Assembly: GCA_944372665.1 (NCBI GenBank) | Contig: CALVZV010000005.1 | Location: 1-51,390, forward strand | DNA length: 51,390 nucleotides | Source: an uncultured Clostridia bacterium | GTDB taxonomy: Bacteria; Bacillota; Clostridia; Christensenellales; DTU072 | Reading direction: 5' to 3' | Shown here: one piece after another, positions 3,222 to 46,938 of the stretch | Layout of the letters: every line of letters starts with the position of its first letter | Numbering within the stretch: the stretch's first letter is position 1 | Notes under the pieces: generated by a model | Told to the model about the DNA's origin: nothing | What the model saw: the letters and a program-made list of their open reading frames with translations, nothing else | The model's database searches: none | Program-made: the position numbers and the translations under genes

Positions 3222-4565
3222 ATGCTATCGGGTGGGAAAATCCATTTTATCGGTATGGGCGGCGTCAGCATGTCGGCTTTGGCTAAGCTGATGATCCTTA
3301 AGGGGTATTCCGTGTCCGGATCGGATCTCAGGTATTCCGCCGAACTGGAGGAACTTGGCGAGTGGGGCGCAACCGTATTGCCGGGTTCGCATCCCGAAGC
3401 GGTGGCTGAAGCCGATCTGGTAGTGTATTCCGGCGCCGTGCCCTCGGACGATCCGGAACTTAAAGAAGCGGTCAGGCTCGGCAAAAAGCGCATAAGACGC
3501 GACTTTCTGCTGCGTGAGATCGCAGCGCGCTATCCCAAAGTGATCTCCGTCGGAGGCACGCACGGCAAAACCACCGTGGCCGCGATGCTGGCTTCGGTGT
3601 TCAGGGAAGCGGGCGAACTTTATACCGCGCACATCGGCGGACATACCTTCGATTCCGGCAATCTCAGTTACCGCGGCGATTCCGTTTTCATTACCGAAGC
3701 TTGCGAATACAAACGCAGTTTTCTGTCGCTAAGCTCCGACGTCGCTGTCGTTACCGCAGTAGAGCCGGATCATCCCGACACTTATAGGAACGAAAAGGAA
3801 CTGTTCGAGGCTTTCGCCGCCTTTTCGTCAAATCTCAAGCCCGGCGGCACAGCCGTGATCAATGCCGATACCGAGTTTTACCGTATGCGCGAAACCGCAT
3901 ATAAAGAAGTGTTCACTTATGCACTCGAAAGTAACGCCGATTTGAAAGGCGTCGATTTGAGAATGCTTAAAAACGGATGTTACGGATTCCGTATACGCCA
4001 ATCGGGGCGACCAGATATCGATATTGCGCTGTCGGTGCCCGGAAAGCACAACGTATACAACGCGCTTGCCGCGGCGGGTGCGGCAAGGATCGAGGGTGTT
4101 GCAGACAAATATATCTGCCAGGGGTTGAAACGATTTATCGGCGTCCGCGGCAGGTTCGAATACGTAAAGCCCTGCGGCGGCGCCAAGCTGTACGCGGATT
4201 ACGCTCATCACCCCACGGAAATACGCGCCGCGATACATACCGCGCTAGGCATGGAGCACAAACGCGTCATAGCCGTCTTTCAGCCGCACACCTTCAGCAG
4301 GACGGAAATGCTGCTGAAAGAGTTTACTTACTGCTTCTGCGACGCCGACGCGGTGTTCGTCTTCAAGGAATATTCCGCCCGTGAAAAAGGAGGCGGAAAG
4401 AGCGCGCTGGATCTTTACTGCGAACTTGCCAAAACGGGCGGAGAATGCTATTACTACGAGGACTCGATGAAACTTGCCGCCGCGCTGGCGGCGTATCTGC
4501 GGCCGGGGGATATGGTGCTTTTACTGGGCGCGGGCGACGTGGCAAAGGTCGCTGAGCTGTTGTAG
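3222..4565 (+). CDS. murC: UDP-N-acetylmuramate--L-alanine ligase
   Basis: A 447-residue Mur ligase. It adds L-Ala to UDP-MurNAc in the cytoplasm, the first step of the peptidoglycan stem peptide. The N-terminal Rossmann segment reads GMGGVSMSALAKLM, the ATP loop GGTHGKTT lies near residues 111-118, and the late motifs YADYAHHPTEI and FQPHTFSRT are characteristic of MurC. No convincing Shine-Dalgarno precedes the ATG. A TATTAT box at 3211-3216 ends 5 nt before it, so this gene may also be leaderless, although its -35 is poor. It stands alone, unlike the usual dcw-cluster location. Confidence 0.95.
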   Translation: MLSGGKIHFIGMGGVSMSALAKLMILKGYSVSGSDLRYSAELEELGEWGATVLPGSHPEAVAEADLVVYSGAVPSDDPELKEAVRLGKKRIRRDFLLREIAARYPKVISVGGTHGKTTVAAMLASVFREAGELYTAHIGGHTFDSGNLSYRGDSVFITEACEYKRSFLSLSSDVAVVTAVEPDHPDTYRNEKELFEAFAAFSSNLKPGGTAVINADTEFYRMRETAYKEVFTYALESNADLKGVDLRMLKNGCYGFRIRQSGRPDIDIALSVPGKHNVYNALAAAGAARIEGVADKYICQGLKRFIGVRGRFEYVKPCGGAKLYADYAHHPTEIRAAIHTALGMEHKRVIAVFQPHTFSRTEMLLKEFTYCFCDADAVFVFKEYSAREKGGGKSALDLYCELAKTGGECYYYEDSMKLAAALAAYLRPGDMVLLLGAGDVAKVAELL

Positions 4566-16182: not shown

Positions 16183-16887
16183 ATGGTCAACATAGGTAAT
16201 GACTGGGACGCGCTTCTCAAGGACGCGTTCTCGTCGGAATGGTACGGCGAACTCAGACGGTTCCTCAAGGAGGAATATATGTCCCATACCGTGTATCCCG
16301 ACATGCGCGATATTTTCAACGCCCTGAAGGCAACGCCGTATAATTCGGTCAAGGCGGTCATACTCGGACAGGATCCGTATCACAATCCCGGCGAGGCGCA
16401 CGGCATGTGCTTTTCGGTAAAGCCGGGCGTCAAAACACCGCCTTCGCTGGTAAACATTTTCAAGGAGATAAACTCAGATCTGGGTATCCGTATTCCGGAT
16501 AACGGGTACCTTAAACCTTGGGCGGAGCAAGGAGTACTGTTGCTCAACACGATATTGACGGTCAGGAGAAACGAGCCGTATTCGCATAAGGGGAAGGGCT
16601 GGGAAAAGCTGACCGATACCGTGATAAAGCTTTTGAACGAGCGTCCGGATCCCGTAGTGTTCTTGCTGTGGGGCGCTCCTGCCAGAGCCAAAAAAAGTCT
16701 GATAACCCGGCCGCACCATTTCGTTCTGGAGGCGGCTCATCCTTCGCCGCTTTCGGCGCACAACGGTTTTTTCGGCTGCAAGCATTTTTCGAAAACCAAC
16801 GCCATACTTTTTTCGCTGGGCAAGACCCCAGTCAACTGGGAGCTGCCCGATACGGCAAGCAGCGTTTCGGACCAAAAAATAATTTAA
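16183..16887 (+). CDS. ung: Uracil-DNA glycosylase, family 1
   Basis: A 234-residue base-excision repair enzyme that removes uracil from DNA. The water-activating motif [16 protein letters not shown] and the DNA-intercalating loop [14 protein letters not shown] are intact, and [10 protein letters not shown] lies between them. Length is normal. The promoter puts the transcription start at the ATG, so the mRNA should be leaderless. Confidence 0.97.
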
Positions 16888-41114: not shown

Positions 41115-41144
41115 TTGACAAACTGAATTTCCCTGCGTTATACT
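41115..41144 (+). promoter_or_regulatory. Promoter of the aromatic amino acid operon
   Basis: Perfect TTGACA (41115-41120), 18-nt spacer, TATACT (41139-41144). Six nucleotides then lead to the ATG of the leader peptide at 41151, with no Shine-Dalgarno. Confidence 0.8.
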
Positions 41145-41150
41145 TTAGCC

Positions 41151-41213
41151 ATGAAAAAAGCAAACCTTTTCGCATACGCATATTACTTTTACTTTAGCTA
41201 CGGGATAGCTTAG
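41151..41213 (+). CDS. Phe/Tyr-rich attenuator leader peptide
   Basis: A 20-codon ORF ending in TAG. It begins MKKANLFAYA and continues YYFYFSYGIA. Eight of 20 codons are aromatic: Tyr at 9, 11, 12, 14 and 17, Phe at 7, 13 and 15, with no Trp. It starts at the predicted transcription start and lies about 100 nt upstream of aroF, followed by an intrinsic terminator. This is the structure of pheA/trpE-type leader peptides: ribosomes stall at Phe/Tyr codons when charged tRNAs run short. In Firmicutes this control is more often a T-box, so a leader peptide is notable. Confidence 0.82.
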   Translation: MKKANLFAYAYYFYFSYGIA

Positions 41214-41280
41214 TTTCTGCGCGGAGGTTTACATTATTATTAGGAATAAGAACCGCCTCGCAAGAAGCGGTTTTTTTCAT
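41162..41280 (+). promoter_or_regulatory. Transcription attenuator of the aromatic operon
   Basis: Four segments with alternative pairing. Segment 1 (41162-41173, aaaccttttcgc) lies inside the leader ORF. Segment 2 (41219-41230, gcgcggaggttt) pairs with segment 1 at 11 of 12 positions, two of them G-U, and with segment 3 (41251-41261, aaccgcctcgc) at 9 of 11. Segment 3 pairs with segment 4 (41264-41272) as a terminator stem with a GCAA loop and T-run. A ribosome stalled on the Tyr/Phe codons would cover segment 1, free segment 2, and block the terminator. All pairings were found by eye; no folding energy was computed. Confidence 0.75.
41251..41277 (+). terminator. Attenuator terminator hairpin
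   Basis: Stem aaccgc with gcggtt, continued past one mismatch by TC/GA to a GCAA tetraloop, then seven Ts (41271-41277). It stands 33 nt before the aroF start codon. Confidence 0.82.
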
Positions 41281-41309
41281 AAAACGACACTGAATCAGAG
41301 GAACGAACC

Positions 41310-42326
41310 ATGATAGTAACGATAAAACCCGACAGCAACCCCGTCCAAGTCAAACGTCTGACGAAATGGATAACCGATCTGGGACTCGCGGTGCATATCA
41401 GCGAGGGAGAAAAGTCCACCGTGATAGGCCTGGTGGGCGACACCTCCAAGGTCGACATCGACCTTATCCGTTCTCTCGACATCGTCGAGGCTGTAACGAG
41501 GATCCAGGAGCCTTATAAGAACGCCAACCGCAAATTCCACCCCGACGACACAATAGTCGACGTGTCGGGAGTGAAGTTCGGCGGCAGCCACTTCCAGATG
41601 ATAGCGGGACCGTGCTCCGTCGAGACCGAAAAACAGGTCATCGGCATAGCCGAGGCGGTCAAGGCTTCGGGCGCTTCGATGCTGCGCGGCGGCGCGTTCA
41701 AACCCAGGACTTCGCCTTATGCGTTCCAGGGACTGGGCATCAAAGGTCTGGAGATCCTGAAAAAAGCGCGCGAAGCGACGGGACTGCCGATCGTCACCGA
41801 GATAATGAGCGAAAAATATATCGACGCATTCGCGGATGTCGATATGGTTCAGATCGGCGCCAGGAACATGCAGAACTTCGACCTTCTGAAAGCCGTGGGC
41901 AGACTGAACAAGCCCGTTCTGTTAAAGCGCGGACTTGCCAACACCATCGAGGAATGGCTGATGAGCGCCGAGTATATCATGAGCGAAGGAAACCTCAATA
42001 TCGTGCTGTGCGAAAGGGGTATCAGGACGTTCGAGCCTTATACCAGAAACACGCTGGATCTTTCCGCCATCCCGATTTTAAAGGAAAAAACGCACCTTCC
42101 CGTCATCGTCGACCCCAGCCACGCTTCGGGGCTGTCCAGACTTGTCAAGCCCATGTCGCTGGCGTCTGTGGGCGCCGGCGCCGACGGGCTTATCATCGAA
42201 GTGCATAACGATCCCACGCACGCGCTGTGCGACGGCGCCCAGTCGTTAAGACCCGAGCAGTTCGACGACGTCGTCAAAGCGATAGACGTCATGCTGCCGC
42301 TGGTAAACAAGGAGAGAGACAGGTGA
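41310..42326 (+). CDS. aroF: 3-deoxy-7-phosphoheptulonate synthase
   Basis: A 338-residue DAHP synthase of the type I-beta form, catalysing the first step of the shikimate pathway. It has an N-terminal ferredoxin-like regulatory domain (residues 1-70, [21 protein letters not shown]), then the TIM barrel with [29 protein letters not shown] and VDPSHASG. The N-terminal domain in this class gives allosteric control by Phe/Tyr or chorismate-derived ligands (family knowledge). It is the first structural gene after the attenuator, and its stop overlaps the tyrA GTG start. Confidence 0.95.
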
Positions 42327-43180
42327 AAATAGCGGTTATAGGACTGGGACTTATAGGCGGTTCGCTGGCGCGCCAGTTCAAAAAGAACACCGCGCATACC
42401 GTCCTAGGTTACGATATTTCCGAGGAGGTCATGCTGAAAGCCGAGCTTCTCGGAGCCATAGACGAGAGGCTTGACATAACCTCTCCCGTGGACGCCGACG
42501 TCGTGTTCGCGGCGCTTTGCCCGGAAGCCGCCATAAAGGTTATGGACGAGATCTGTCCGCTGCTGAAAAATGGCGCCGTCGTCGCGGATACTGCCGGCGT
42601 AAAAAGAGATATCGTCCGCAAGATGGGCGAGCTGTCCGAGAAATACCCCGAACTATCCTTTGTAGGCGTACACCCAATGGCTGGCAGGGAATACAGCGGA
42701 ATTTCGCATTCGACCGCCAGCCTTTTCGAACACGCATACATAATAATCACGCCCGTTTTCGCCGAGATCGAGGCGGCGGAAAAGATCAAAAATCTTTTTA
42801 CCGAAGCCGTATGTCAGGGCATAACCATGGCGTCGGCGGAGGAACACGACAAAATAATAGCCTATACTTCGCAGCTGGCGCACGTCGTCTCCAGCGCGTA
42901 TATGCAAAACCCCGTGGCGGAAAACTATTTCGGTTTTTCCGCAGGCAGTTTCAGGGACATGACCAGGGTTGCAAAGTTAAGCCCCGATATGTGGACGGAG
43001 CTTTTCGAGGCGAACGCGGATAACCTTATACCCTGTATAGACGACATTATTTTCAGACTGACGGCTTTCAGAAACGCCATAGCTTCGGGCGACGACAGAA
43101 CTCTCCACGCTATGCTGGAGCGCGGCAACGAACTCAAAGAAAGGGCGGAGAAGACCAGAAGGGAGCGGAAAAATGACTGA
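42323..43180 (+). CDS. tyrA: Prephenate dehydrogenase
   Basis: A 285-residue enzyme forming 4-hydroxyphenylpyruvate for tyrosine synthesis. The NAD-binding motif is [12 protein letters not shown] at the N terminus, followed by [13 protein letters not shown] and [14 protein letters not shown]. There is no ACT domain, so feedback control would come from elsewhere. The start is GTG at 42323 ([10 protein letters not shown]), in phase with an aaggaga Shine-Dalgarno and overlapping the aroF stop by 4 nt; the longer frame opening at 42227 has no support. Confidence 0.93.
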
Positions 43181-44426
43181 CATCGTGCTTTATCCAGCCG
43201 CAATTTCGGGTATCGCCCGTGTGCCTGCTTCAAAATCTTACGTTCACAGGCTGATGATAGTTTCTGCGCTTTCGGGTCACCCTTTGAGGATAAAAGGTTC
43301 CCCTAAAAGCAAAGACATAGAAGCGACCGCGAATTGTCTGAAAGCGCTCGGAGCTAAGGTCGGGATCGGTGAAAACGGTATAGAGATCACGCCGCCCGCA
43401 AAGTTCAGATCGGCTTTGCTCGACGCCGCGGAGTCCGGCAGTACGCTCAGAATGCTTTTGCCGGTAATTCCCGTGCTGGGGGTCGAAGCAACTTTTACGG
43501 GATGCGGCAGACTGCCGCAAAGACCCGTTCGCGACGTAATCGAAGTGCTGAAAAAAGCGGGCGCCCGTGTCGACGGGGAAGCTCTGCCGATAAAAATCGG
43601 GGGGAGTTATTCCTCGCGACTTTTCGAGGTCGATAATCCCGTCAGTTCCCAGCACGTCAGCGGAATTTTAACTGCGCTTGCGGCTTTGGGCGGCGGCAGG
43701 ATAACGCTAAAGGGCAAACTGCCTTCGGAGGGTTACGTTTCGATGACCGCGGAAGTGCTGAAGCTTTACGGCGTCGAGGTCGTTAAAACGGACTACGGCT
43801 ACGAAGTCGAAAGCGGATTTACCGAATTTCCTGCCGAAGCGACATGTGAAGCCGACTGGTCGGGCGCGGCGTTCATGGCGGCAATAGGAGCCGTGGCTGG
43901 CTCGGTCAAAGTTCCCGCCGCAAAGTATCCGTCGCTTCAGCCCGACAGCGTATGCGCCGAGATTTTAAAACGCGCGGGCGCAAAGGCGGAAATAACCGAA
44001 ACGGGTATCGTATTTTCCAAAGGGGAAAAGCTTGAGGCGTTTTCGTTCGACGCCGATTCCTCTCCCGACCTTGTACCCGCGATGGCATCGGCGGCGGCGT
44101 TTGCCGACGGGGTGTCGGTAATACGGGGCGTGGACAGACTGCGTATCAAAGAGAGCGACCGTATAACCTCTACCGTCGATATGCTGAACGCGCTGGGCAT
44201 AGAAGCGCGGTACTTCGATAATGCGATATACATACGCGGCGGTACGGTCAAAGGCGGAACGGTTGACGCGAAAAACGATCATCGCATCGCCATGGCGGCG
44301 GCAATACTCGCTTCGGGCGCCGAGGGCGCGGTAAAAATAAAAGGCGCGGAATGCGTGGACAAATCCTTTGCGGGATTTTTCGACGAATACGTCAGGATCG
44401 GAGGTAAAGCCGAATGGGTAAAATAA
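43173..44426 (+). CDS. aroA: 3-phosphoshikimate 1-carboxyvinyltransferase (EPSP synthase)
   Basis: A 417-residue EPSP synthase. PASKSYVHRLMIVSALS is the N-terminal substrate loop, with AESGSTLRMLLPV, GCGRLPQRPV, the LRIKESDRI segment and DHRIAMAAAI following. It overlaps tyrA by 8 nt and aroC by 13 nt. The loop has SxxxHR where most have SKSxxNR. No sign of inactivation. Confidence 0.95.
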   Translation: MTDIVLYPAAISGIARVPASKSYVHRLMIVSALSGHPLRIKGSPKSKDIEATANCLKALGAKVGIGENGIEITPPAKFRSALLDAAESGSTLRMLLPVIPVLGVEATFTGCGRLPQRPVRDVIEVLKKAGARVDGEALPIKIGGSYSSRLFEVDNPVSSQHVSGILTALAALGGGRITLKGKLPSEGYVSMTAEVLKLYGVEVVKTDYGYEVESGFTEFPAEATCEADWSGAAFMAAIGAVAGSVKVPAAKYPSLQPDSVCAEILKRAGAKAEITETGIVFSKGEKLEAFSFDADSSPDLVPAMASAAAFADGVSVIRGVDRLRIKESDRITSTVDMLNALGIEARYFDNAIYIRGGTVKGGTVDAKNDHRIAMAAAILASGAEGAVKIKGAECVDKSFAGFFDEYVRIGGKAEWVK

Positions 44427-45460
44427 GCGTCGAACTGTACGGCGAAAGCCATGCCGCAAAAATCGGCGTCAGGATCACGGGCGTGCCCTGCGGCACGGCG
44501 ATAGACGAAGCCGGGATCGCGGAGCTTTTGGGAAGACGTCGCGCCGTCAAAGCGGCATACTCGACTCCCCGTATGGAAAAGGACGCCTACGAGTTCGTTT
44601 CGGGAATCGAAAACGGAATCGTCACGGGAGATATCGTCGCGGAAATAAAAAACGCCGACGTGCGTTCGTCGGATTATCCCAGATACGTTCCCCGTCCCGC
44701 GCACGCCGATTACGCTTCGTTCGTAAAGGACGGGCTAAAGGAAATTACGCCCGGAGGCGGCAGGTTTTCTGGCAGAATGACAGCTCCGCTTTGTATCGCG
44801 GGCGGCATATTCAAAGGCATACTCGGGGAAAAGGGTATCTTTGTCGACGCCTACGTAAAAAGTATCGGCGGCATAGCCGGCAAAGGCTATTTCGACGGCG
44901 CGACGCGCGAGGAAATGGCTTTTGCCAAAAAAACGCCGCCCTACGCTATATCTAACGGCGAACAGATGCTTCGGGCGGTGGAGGCGGCGCGCCGCGAGGG
45001 CGATTCGCTGGGCGGCACGGTGGAATGCGTAATAACGGGAATGCCCGTAGGGGCAGGCGACTTTTATACCTCGGGTATAGAGAGCGCTATTGCCTACGAG
45101 GTGTTCGGAGTGCCGGCGGTCAAGGGGATCGAATTCGGACTGGGATTCGGCTTTGACGGCGCGTTCGGAAGCGAAGTCAACGATCCTTTCCGCATCGAAA
45201 ACGGAAAAGTCGTGACTGCGACGAACAACAGCGGCGGTATAAACGGGGGAATTTCCAACGGTATGCCCGTAGTTTTCCGTGCGGTACTGCGCCCGACTCC
45301 GTCCATATCCAAGCCTCAGCAAAGCGTCGATTTGTCTACCATGGAAAACGCAACCTTGAATCTGAAAGGCAGACACGACGCCTGCATAGTGCCGCGCGCG
45401 GCGGCGGCGATAGAAGCTGCAGCCGCGATAGCCGTAGCCAAACTCACGGAGGGGATATGA
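44414..45460 (+). CDS. aroC: Chorismate synthase
   Basis: A 348-residue FMN-dependent enzyme producing chorismate from EPSP. Motifs: YGESHAAKIGV at the N terminus, RFSGRMTAPLCIAGG, GSEVNDPF, NNSGGINGGISNGMPV, RPTPSISKPQQSVD and RHDACIVPRA. The Shine-Dalgarno cggagg lies within aroA. It overlaps the next gene by 4 nt. Confidence 0.96.
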   Translation: MGKISVELYGESHAAKIGVRITGVPCGTAIDEAGIAELLGRRRAVKAAYSTPRMEKDAYEFVSGIENGIVTGDIVAEIKNADVRSSDYPRYVPRPAHADYASFVKDGLKEITPGGGRFSGRMTAPLCIAGGIFKGILGEKGIFVDAYVKSIGGIAGKGYFDGATREEMAFAKKTPPYAISNGEQMLRAVEAARREGDSLGGTVECVITGMPVGAGDFYTSGIESAIAYEVFGVPAVKGIEFGLGFGFDGAFGSEVNDPFRIENGKVVTATNNSGGINGGISNGMPVVFRAVLRPTPSISKPQQSVDLSTMENATLNLKGRHDACIVPRAAAAIEAAAAIAVAKLTEGI

Positions 45461-46938
45461 AAGACATTTCCGAACTCAGGTCAAAACTGGACGTCATAGA
45501 CGAAAAACTCGCTTTGCTTTTGTCCGAGCGTATGGACGCGGCGAGGGAAGTGGGACTATACAAAAAACAGTCGGGATTCCCGTTGAACGACCCCGAACGC
45601 GAGCAAAAGATCGTCGGGCGTTTTTCGGCAAGACTTCCGATAGGCTACCGTGAATACGCGGGCGAAATAATGGGCGCCGTTTTCGACGTTTCCAAGAAAA
45701 TACAGCGTAAGATCGCCGGAAACTATTACGTTATCGGCAAGAAACTGCCGCATACCTGGAGCCCCGACATTTACCGCCCTTTAGGGCTGGATTACGGGGT
45801 GAAGGAACTCGGGACCGAGAAGGACGTCGAACGATTCGTCTTGTCCCGCGAGTACGACGGATTCAACGCGACGATTCCTTATAAACAGACCGTAATGCCG
45901 TTTTTGGACGAAATCGACGCCGAAGCCGCCGCCGTAGGTGCGGTAAACACCGTCGTGAACAGAAACGGCAAACTGTTCGGTTACAATACCGACGTCGGCG
46001 GCATGCGCGGTGCGCTGATAAACGCAGGTATAGATCCCGCGGGCAAGGTTTGCGCAGTCCTCGGCGGCAACGGCGGTACCGCGCATACCGCGCGTTACGT
46101 ATTGAAAAACATGGGCGCGGCGCGCATACTCACCGTCTCCAGGACGGGAGATATAAACTACTCTGACATATACGGCTGCCCCGTCGAAATAATAATCAAC
46201 TGTACCCCGGTGGGAATGTATCCCAATCTCATCGACTGCCCCGTCGAACCGGAAAAATTCCCGCTTTTAAAGGGCGTGTTCGACGCCGTATACAATCCTG
46301 CAGAAACTCTTTTAGTCATGCGCGCAAGATCGATCGGTATCCCGGCTGCGAACGGACTGTATATGCTTGTGGAACAGGGGCGCCTTGCATATAATTTATA
46401 TACGGATTCCGAAACCGATGAAACGGTAACCGAAACGCTTGTAAAATCTATAACGCTCGATAAAACCAACGTCGTCATCGAGGGTATGCCCGGCTCGGGA
46501 AAGACGTCTGTAGGCAGAGAGGTCGCGCGCATTTTGAACAAGACTTTCGTGGATACCGACGAGGAGATTGAAAAAGCTTACGGTAAGTCGATCCCCGATA
46601 TTTTCGCTTCGGAGGGAGAGAGCGCGTTCAGGGATAAGGAAACCGAAGCCGTACTTCGGGCGGCGGCTTTGAACGGCGCGGTAATTGCAACGGGCGGCGG
46701 CGCGGTACTGAGCCGCCTGAACCGCGAAGCGTTGAAACGTAACGGCTGGATAGTATATCTGAAGCGCGATCTGTCGAAGCTGGAATCGGCAGGGCGACCG
46801 TTGAGTATCAGTCTCGGTGCCGACAAGCTTTATGCCGAAAGAGCGCCGATATACGAGGCGTTCGCGGACTTTACCGTCGAAAACGACGGGATAGAATCCT
46901 CGGCGGAAAAAATCGCAGAAGCATTCTTGAAATCATAG
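45457..46938 (+). CDS. Trifunctional chorismate mutase-shikimate dehydrogenase-shikimate kinase
   Basis: A 493-residue three-domain fusion. Residues 1-85 form an AroQ-type chorismate mutase (LRSKLDVIDEKLALLLSERMDAAREVGLYK). Residues about 88-325 form shikimate dehydrogenase: KLPHTWSP substrate loop, NATIPYKQ with catalytic Lys, GAVNTVV, GYNTDVGG, and LGGNGGTAHTA for NADP. Residues about 335-493 form shikimate kinase with P-loop EGMPGSGKTSVG, DTDEEIE and ATGGGAVL. Domain order CM-SDH-SK supplies two pathway steps before aroA and the first step after chorismate. It is the last gene of the operon. AroB, AroD and prephenate dehydratase are not in this window. Confidence 0.93.
   Translation: MKDISELRSKLDVIDEKLALLLSERMDAAREVGLYKKQSGFPLNDPEREQKIVGRFSARLPIGYREYAGEIMGAVFDVSKKIQRKIAGNYYVIGKKLPHTWSPDIYRPLGLDYGVKELGTEKDVERFVLSREYDGFNATIPYKQTVMPFLDEIDAEAAAVGAVNTVVNRNGKLFGYNTDVGGMRGALINAGIDPAGKVCAVLGGNGGTAHTARYVLKNMGAARILTVSRTGDINYSDIYGCPVEIIINCTPVGMYPNLIDCPVEPEKFPLLKGVFDAVYNPAETLLVMRARSIGIPAANGLYMLVEQGRLAYNLYTDSETDETVTETLVKSITLDKTNVVIEGMPGSGKTSVGREVARILNKTFVDTDEEIEKAYGKSIPDIFASEGESAFRDKETEAVLRAAALNGAVIATGGGAVLSRLNREALKRNGWIVYLKRDLSKLESAGRPLSISLGADKLYAERAPIYEAFADFTVENDGIESSAEKIAEAFLKS

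Follow-up and report, generated by a model that had tools for sequence, protein, structure and literature searches.

How does an uncultured gut bacterium of the class Clostridia, known from a draft genome of 1.64 Mb, match its aromatic amino acid pathway to the supply of tyrosine and phenylalanine? The question is raised by the region upstream of aroF in the window, by which we mean the whole 51,390-nucleotide stretch of DNA that was analysed (contig CALVZV010000005.1), where a promoter, a 20-codon open reading frame (ORF) with five Tyr and three Phe codons and a terminator follow one another ahead of the operon, all of them present in the sequence as the initial annotation had described. We regard it as highly probable that this region is a ribosome-mediated transcription attenuator responding to Tyr and Phe and translated from a leaderless RNA; the bacterium appears to sense a shortage of either amino acid via the speed of the ribosome on a 20-codon gene. 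The classical precedents are the enteric pheA and trp attenuators (Rfam Phe_leader and Trp_leader), which combine a short ORF rich in codons for the end product with three competing pairings and an intrinsic terminator. The aroF region shares the codon-rich short ORF, three putative competing pairings and the intrinsic terminator before the first gene, but differs in that its leader RNA is predicted to be leaderless, in that two amino acids are addressed by one leader, in the nature of the operon, which begins with DAHP synthase, and in a covarying hairpin at the end of the ORF. The parts of the locus are as follows (positions in the window, all on the + strand).

41115-41120, +, -35 box TTGACA, 6/6 consensus; TTGAC in 13/13 genomes of the same genus
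Between the boxes, promoter spacer of 18 nt
41139-41144, +, -10 box TATACT; the ATG lies 6 nt further, at the same distance in 13/13 same-genus genomes
41151, +, predicted transcription start, coinciding with the A of the leader start codon (from the -10 spacing; no Shine-Dalgarno (SD) motif upstream)
41151-41213, +, leader peptide ORF MKKANLFAYAYYFYFSYGIA, 20 codons, stop codon TAG
41162-41173, +, segment 1, putative protector strand inside the leader ORF; 1:2 duplex dG -13.7, p 0.047 against shuffled ORFs
41196-41210, +, 5-bp hairpin at the ORF end, AGCUA-5 nt-UAGCU (covariation)
41218-41229, +, segment 2, putative 5' strand of the antiterminator (folds, ribosome stall model)
41251-41262, +, segment 3, 5' strand and loop of the terminator and partner of segment 2 (terminator search, folds, stall model)
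41248-41277, +, predicted intrinsic terminator, 3:4 hairpin and U run; dG -12.4; stem 41248-41275, T run 41271-41277
41297-41302, +, Shine-Dalgarno-like AGAGGA of aroF, read from the sequence
41310-42326, +, aroF, DAHP synthase, first regulated gene, ATG at 41310 (Pfam PF00793, PF18152; NCBIfam DAHP_synth_Bsub)
42323-43180, +, tyrA, prephenate dehydrogenase; its GTG start overlaps the aroF stop (Pfam PF02153, PF20463)
43173-44426, +, aroA, EPSP synthase (Pfam PF00275)
44414-45460, +, aroC, chorismate synthase (Pfam PF01264)
45457-46938, +, chorismate mutase-shikimate dehydrogenase-shikimate kinase fusion, a single gene (Pfam PF01817, PF08501, PF01202)

The Pfam matches bear out an operon of five aromatic genes, including DAHP synthase and prephenate dehydrogenase, whose ends overlap. 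Segment 1 kept the coordinates first given to it; those of segments 2 and 3 were off or too short by about one base and now read 41218-41229 and 41251-41262.

The composition of the leader is unlikely to be fortuitous: given the codon use of the five operon genes, at least 8 Phe/Tyr codons among 19 are expected with P = 1.2e-5, and, as had been noted from the outset, there is no Trp codon among the 20. A lack of conservation of the leader ORF or of the alternative stems in close relatives had been named beforehand as an outcome that would speak against the attenuator reading; the comparison came out in favour of it. Genomes of the genus encode aroF in 13 of 13 cases, and a 20-codon Tyr/Phe leader lies upstream in all 13, as does a terminator candidate. 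Substitutions in the leader fall mainly on synonymous sites, with a pN/pS of 0.25 in a clade of nine genomes, 0.29 for three genomes from the second clade and 0.53 across all 13; codons 9-15 have a pN of 0, with no amino acid change, in the nine-genome clade. Between the clades the N-terminal third and the C-terminal end of the peptide vary freely and the aromatic run is kept. Judging from these comparisons, the leader peptide is under purifying selection.

The translation start of this leader is unusual. In all 13 genus genomes the -10 box lies 6 nt from the ATG and the ATG is preceded by no SD motif. At a distance of 6 nt from the -10 box the usual transcription start falls on the A of the ATG; we infer the exact start from this spacing, and the leader RNA is accordingly predicted to be leaderless. 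How general the layout is can be judged from 110 aroF loci (L001-L110) drawn both from the family and from a public collection of genomes, of which 13 duplicates, two loci with a short upstream region, 13 lacking an aromatic leader by rule and three with a weak one (L036, L045, L110) were dropped, leaving 79. With a choice of in-frame starts that favoured those near a promoter or an SD motif, and with three starts set by hand, the promoter is found 6-9 nt from the start codon in 35 of the 79 leaders (exactly 6 nt in 29, 9 nt in three); in the other 44 it is at least 16 nt away (30 leaders) or was not found (14), and none lies at 10-15 nt. An SD motif of at least 4 nt is present in 1/35 of the short-spaced leaders versus 30/44 of the others. 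Mapped on a quick AroF tree of 78 proteins, with L097 left out, the leaderless label changes 11 times, three of these changes being forced by well-supported branches.

The leaderless layout is not special to the leader; as the sequence pattern indicates, ordinary genes of the genome share the spacing. The pattern TTGAC-(17-19)-TANNNT-6-ATG occurs 15 times in the genome, against once in a reversed control, and 11 of the 15 sites precede ORFs of at least 164 amino acids; a Pfam scan of nine of these gave matches for every one, with products that include RuvC, type III pantothenate kinase, biotin ligase and a protein of the purine nucleoside phosphorylase type. One site (L119) has AGGAGG between its boxes, which may be a chance match. 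The net density is 8.5 sites per Mb in this genome and 7.2-10.0 in 11 genomes of the genus, about four times the median of 2.0 per Mb in 117 other genomes of the class, of which four reach the value of our genome. In 15 family genomes that belong to other genera, such sites are more numerous where the aroF leader is leaderless than where it is of the SD type (net p 0.027, raw p 0.002), the aroF leader itself having been subtracted and one of the leaderless genomes, G017, having a high control count. A comparison across spacings of 2-30 nt (137 sites) was not used for statistics, since a promoter that has two possible ATGs can be counted with the closer of them. For comparison, the available parts of published surveys put leaderless genes in Firmicutes at 4.2% on average where detected, concentrated in Lactobacillales and Mycoplasma (PMC3160421), and leaderless transcripts at 2-3% in three solventogenic clostridia (PMC9045289), with 212 listed for C. 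acetobutylicum (PMC4533764).

A few observations on promoters of this type stand on their own. Three genomes of 0.8-0.9 Mb from the same order (G085, G119, G168) reach 18.9-20.0 sites per Mb, more than twice the density of the window's genus. In the window itself, ORFs of at least 100 amino acids with a promoter-like site 6-7 nt before the start are found at 1223 (+), 16183 (+), 38977 (+) and 28949 (-), and a weaker case at 3222 (+); the one at 16183 was scanned and is a uracil-DNA glycosylase-like gene. Elsewhere in the genome (L116, contig C13) the ATG of a 16-codon ORF follows a -10 box at a distance of 6 nt, which may be due to chance, and this ORF lies shortly upstream of another that resembles RpoB by eye.

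Attenuation also calls for a terminator that can be switched. Candidates lie 34-41 nt past the leader stop codon in 13/13 same-genus genomes, with a dG of -10.5 to -15.0, and in 75 of the 79 non-redundant aroF leaders when no energy cut-off is applied. The terminator of the window has a dG of -12.4 in the dedicated search; a consensus scan lists no + strand terminator at the site. In the suggested check by minimum-energy folding, the RNA 41151-41285 folds better than its shuffles by 3.15 s.d.; part of its best fold, in which AUGAAAAAA pairs with the U run, is not kept in relatives. This pairing was rejected because the bases after the U run vary among the relatives. The RNAalifold consensus retains the ORF-end hairpin and part of 2:3.

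The effect of a ribosome on these pairings was modelled for all 13 genus members, with codons 9, 11 or 13 in the A site compared with the stop codon. In every one of them 2:3 pairing is higher with the ribosome stalled than at the stop, a difference matched by at most 3 of 60 spacer shuffles in eight genomes and by 7-19 of 60 in the other five. For the full RNA of the window the model gives the terminator a probability of 0.82 when no ribosome is present; this drops to 0.00 when the A site holds any of codons 8-13 and reaches 0.91 at the stop codon. A ribosome at codons 14-17 brings it back to 0.53-0.81, so that the last aromatic codons may contribute nothing. At equilibrium the full RNA favours the terminator (above 0.6) at every modelled stall from codon 8 to 13 in 10 of the 13 genomes (the exceptions being L001, L006 and L013); the switch there would have to be kinetic and, in terms of the model, set before segment 4 is made.

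The test on duplex energies alone is the weaker one. Among the 72 of the 79 leaders in which a terminator was found 14-65 nt from the stop codon, the 2:3 duplex is better than shuffles at p<0.05 in 30 and the 1:2 duplex in 15; within the genus the figures are 4/13 for 2:3, where segment 3 was cut to its stem strand with the loop omitted (p 0.31 in the window), and 7/13 for 1:2. Column-wise covariation was given up for both pairings because their register shifts between subgroups, and was replaced by strand swaps and spacer shuffles. Swapping the strands of 1:2 between subgroups weakens the duplex from an own-group mean of -21.0 to -12.3 and -10.0 kcal/mol in one subgroup, from -14.5 to -13.3 and -12.6 in another and from -12.8 to -9.0 and -11.1 in the third, which most clearly supports a co-change of the two strands in the first; for 2:3, own strands gain little or nothing over swapped ones. 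In the model of the window without a ribosome, 1:2 does not beat 2:3. Of the three competing pairings proposed initially, 2:3 is favoured at a stall by the model in all 13 genomes, beyond shuffles in eight of them, and 1:2 is weaker in the window than was first claimed and strongest in a sister clade.

The switch between 2:3 and 3:4 is at present a product of modelling, and we infer the response to Tyr and Phe. RNA polymerase would start at the A of the leader ATG, or one or two bases off; from a start at this A it follows that the ribosome initiates on a bare 5' end, with no Shine-Dalgarno site. A shortage of Tyr- or Phe-tRNA would make the ribosome halt in the codon run Y-A-Y-Y-F-Y-F, where it would cover segment 1. 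Segment 2 would then be available for pairing with segment 3; the terminator would not form and the operon would be read. With both amino acids plentiful, the ribosome would reach the stop codon, 4 nt before segment 2, and disturb 2:3, whereupon the 3:4 terminator could form and transcription would end near 41277.

The end of the leader ORF harbours an additional element. A 5-bp hairpin spans its last five codons and reads AGCUA/UAGCU in one clade and UACCG/CGGUA in the other, with U-G and G-U pairs as intermediates. All 65 of 65 cells of the comparison are paired, against 10.8-47.7% in slid controls, and both sides have changed in four of the five pairs, with 16 two-sided changes in total; these separate two clades and may therefore represent few events. 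The two clades encode different amino acids here, so the hairpin is conserved as an RNA structure. Comparison of related sequences shows a covarying hairpin alongside the conserved leader, the -10 to ATG distance and the terminator. Relative to the modelled footprint of a ribosome that has codon 12 in its A site, the hairpin begins one base further on, and it may act as a timing or pausing element for the polymerase or the ribosome.

Do other explanations account for these features equally well? The attenuator could work as described on an RNA that is not truly leaderless, starting a few bases upstream or using a weak translation site, the 6-nt spacing being a matter of compact packing. The three short-spaced leaders at 9 nt, which would have a 5' end of about 3 nt at the usual start distance, fit this idea, which we nevertheless consider unlikely: 29 of the 79 leaders lie at exactly 6 nt and none at 10-15 nt, the SD motif is confined to 1/35 of the short-spaced group versus 30/44 of the other, and the same spacing recurs on ordinary genes of the genome.

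Two further readings depart from attenuation by the ribosome. In one, the ORF product would matter mainly as a small, stable peptide or as a leader that acts in trans, in the way reported for S. meliloti peTrpL, and the terminator would be fixed. The purifying selection on the peptide is in its favour, and a leaderless leader peptide with a trans role is on record in the available text of PMC7298713. What speaks against this very unlikely reading is that the composition of the leader tracks the end product, that the ends of the peptide change freely between clades and the aromatic run stays, and that alternative pairings are found at a fixed distance past the stop. Alternatively, read-through might be governed by protein binding or by an RNA that senses a ligand (riboswitch or T-box), with no role for the ORF, an idea that derives some appeal from T-boxes in the family, one of them in this genome. 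That sole T-box lies elsewhere, however, before a TrpB-like gene; no Rfam family reaches its gathering score at the aroF leader (Phe_leader and Trp_leader are not among the four weak matches), the T-box covariance model RF00230 has no match there, and the ORF is the best conserved part of the region, so that we give this reading hardly any credence. At 15 aroF loci with no leader or a weak one, neither a T-box nor another Rfam element was found. The initial interpretation as a Phe/Tyr leader-peptide attenuator draws its support from the conserved leader, the terminator candidates and the stall model; the leaderless layout, the ORF-end hairpin, the pheA counterpart and an explanation for the lack of Trp codons are additions to it.

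If leader codons report on end products, the branch leading to phenylalanine should carry a different set. The gene for prephenate dehydratase, pheA, is present in 13/13 genus genomes, with a chorismate mutase fusion suggested by its length and start. By pattern search, a leaderless-type promoter and a Phe-rich ORF lie upstream in 12 genomes; the leader of our own genome (L156 / L172, contig C51) is likewise leaderless-type and Phe-rich, with a GTG start. The 13 pheA leaders contain 82 Phe, three Tyr and no Trp codons, compared with 36 Phe, 61 Tyr and no Trp codons in the 13 aroF leaders, and each is followed by a terminator candidate and then by an SD-like site before pheA. Mostly Phe before pheA versus Tyr and Phe before aroF is what end-product sensing predicts, and the sequences indicate that an attenuator of like build, nearly specific for Phe, precedes pheA elsewhere in the genome. 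No comparable leader, a short ORF rich in His codons, turned up near hisG in the 12 genomes searched, one of the loci having only 18 bases upstream.

The missing Trp codon can be viewed in the same light. Chorismate-binding enzymes (PF00425, including TrpE) were found in 0/13 genus genomes, several of them incomplete drafts, with 14/14 controls positive; the failure to find a TrpE-type enzyme in the genus fits the missing Trp codon in the leader. Across 54 genomes with aroF leaders, indole-3-glycerol phosphate synthase (IGPS; PF00218, over the cut-off, one weak match in G038 being uncounted) is encoded in 6/9 genomes with a leader Trp codon versus 3/45 without one (Fisher p 0.0002), a result for which a Poisson or tree-free reading is unsafe because six of the nine leaders belong to one Bacteroidales clade. 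By lineage, the Trp-codon leaders are those of this clade, L028 and L085, with IGPS, and L084, where Trp is the last residue, without it. The single T-box of our own genome (L171, C34:11150-14200) lies 60 nt before the TrpB-like gene; together with the failure to find a TrpE-type enzyme and IGPS, this suggests that the bacterium makes Trp from scavenged indole.

Individual elements of this arrangement have precedents, described here as far as the available text of each report goes. The view that T-boxes are the more usual device in Firmicutes is fair, but leader-peptide attenuators have already been published there, for his, hisS/hisZ and ilv/branched-chain genes (PMC9413887, PMC2965389, PMC5864092; a further report is PMC5794164), among them the Listeria attenuator Rli60, tested by experiment and drawn with a ribosome binding site (PMC9413887, PMC2965389, PMC5864092); these systems likewise employ ribosome-mediated attenuation and address other amino acids. 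The motif uORFC-13-1 upstream of aroF in Acholeplasma (PMC8632094) resembles our locus in its Phe-codon uORF, terminator and promoter boxes. Its description sets it apart: it includes a ribosome binding site, at variance with the SD-free leaders of the 13 genus genomes, and at least one run of Phe codons, the available text does not mention Tyr, and the lineage is another at phylum level. In C. glutamicum a leader peptide also precedes a DAHP synthase gene, aroF (cg1129), with a mechanism that is only suggested (PMC3890552); the likeness is one of description, and the host is an Actinobacterium. Leader RNAs that begin at the start codon of the leader peptide, as predicted here, are described for S. 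meliloti trpL, C. diphtheriae ilvB and C. glutamicum ilvBNC (PMC7298713, PMC5784534, PMC11857589), which belong to Alphaproteobacteria and Actinobacteria and serve Trp or branched-chain amino acids, unlike the Tyr/Phe leader of a Clostridia genus rich in leaderless-type promoters. The open-access literature, to which the search was largely confined, yielded neither a Clostridia example of a leader-peptide attenuator for aromatic amino acids nor a leaderless attenuator of this kind from a Firmicute. The combination did not appear in the literature searched; its separate parts have been described, attenuation by leader peptides in Firmicutes and leaderless leader peptides in other bacteria.

With a leader in 79 of the 95 non-redundant aroF upstream regions examined, an enteric-type sensor is apparently the norm for controlling the aromatic pathway across a large group of gut Clostridia, most of them uncultured. 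A broader picture, which we offer tentatively and hold to be somewhat doubtful, is that amino acid attenuators of Christensenella-like Clostridia have repeatedly switched between SD and leaderless starts, in step with genome-wide leaderless use and with the leader kept. The leaderless pair would divide the work by codons, Tyr and Phe governing the common pathway and tyrA, almost only Phe governing pheA, and Trp codons being added to the aroF leader in genomes that synthesise Trp. Leaderless initiation of the 70S type would itself belong to the sensor, so that the operon would answer to the cell's state of initiation as well as to charged tRNA, and the ORF-end hairpin would be the timing element. 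Closely related attenuators occur here in natural pairs with different translation starts, and these offer a direct test of whether leaderless initiation can keep the timing of attenuation. As a reading rule, the codons of the leader show which aromatic amino acids the pathway delivers, which helps to predict auxotrophies from sequence.

Two other sets of aroF leaders deserve mention. Six Bacteroidales/Bacteroidaceae MAGs (L083, L089, L090, L091, L092, L096) have an aroF 66-68% identical to that of the window and a Tyr/Phe/Trp leader; in the leaders read, a TAnnTTTG box, which we take to be the -7 element of Bacteroidetes, lies about 8 nt before the ATG, and they may be near-leaderless. The leader shared by Oscillibacter-like genomes (L098, L100, L104, L106, L107, L108) is longer and of another kind; it has the conserved motif RYFSFT(Y/F/C)F.GKA, is of the SD type in 5/6 and is followed by strong terminators.
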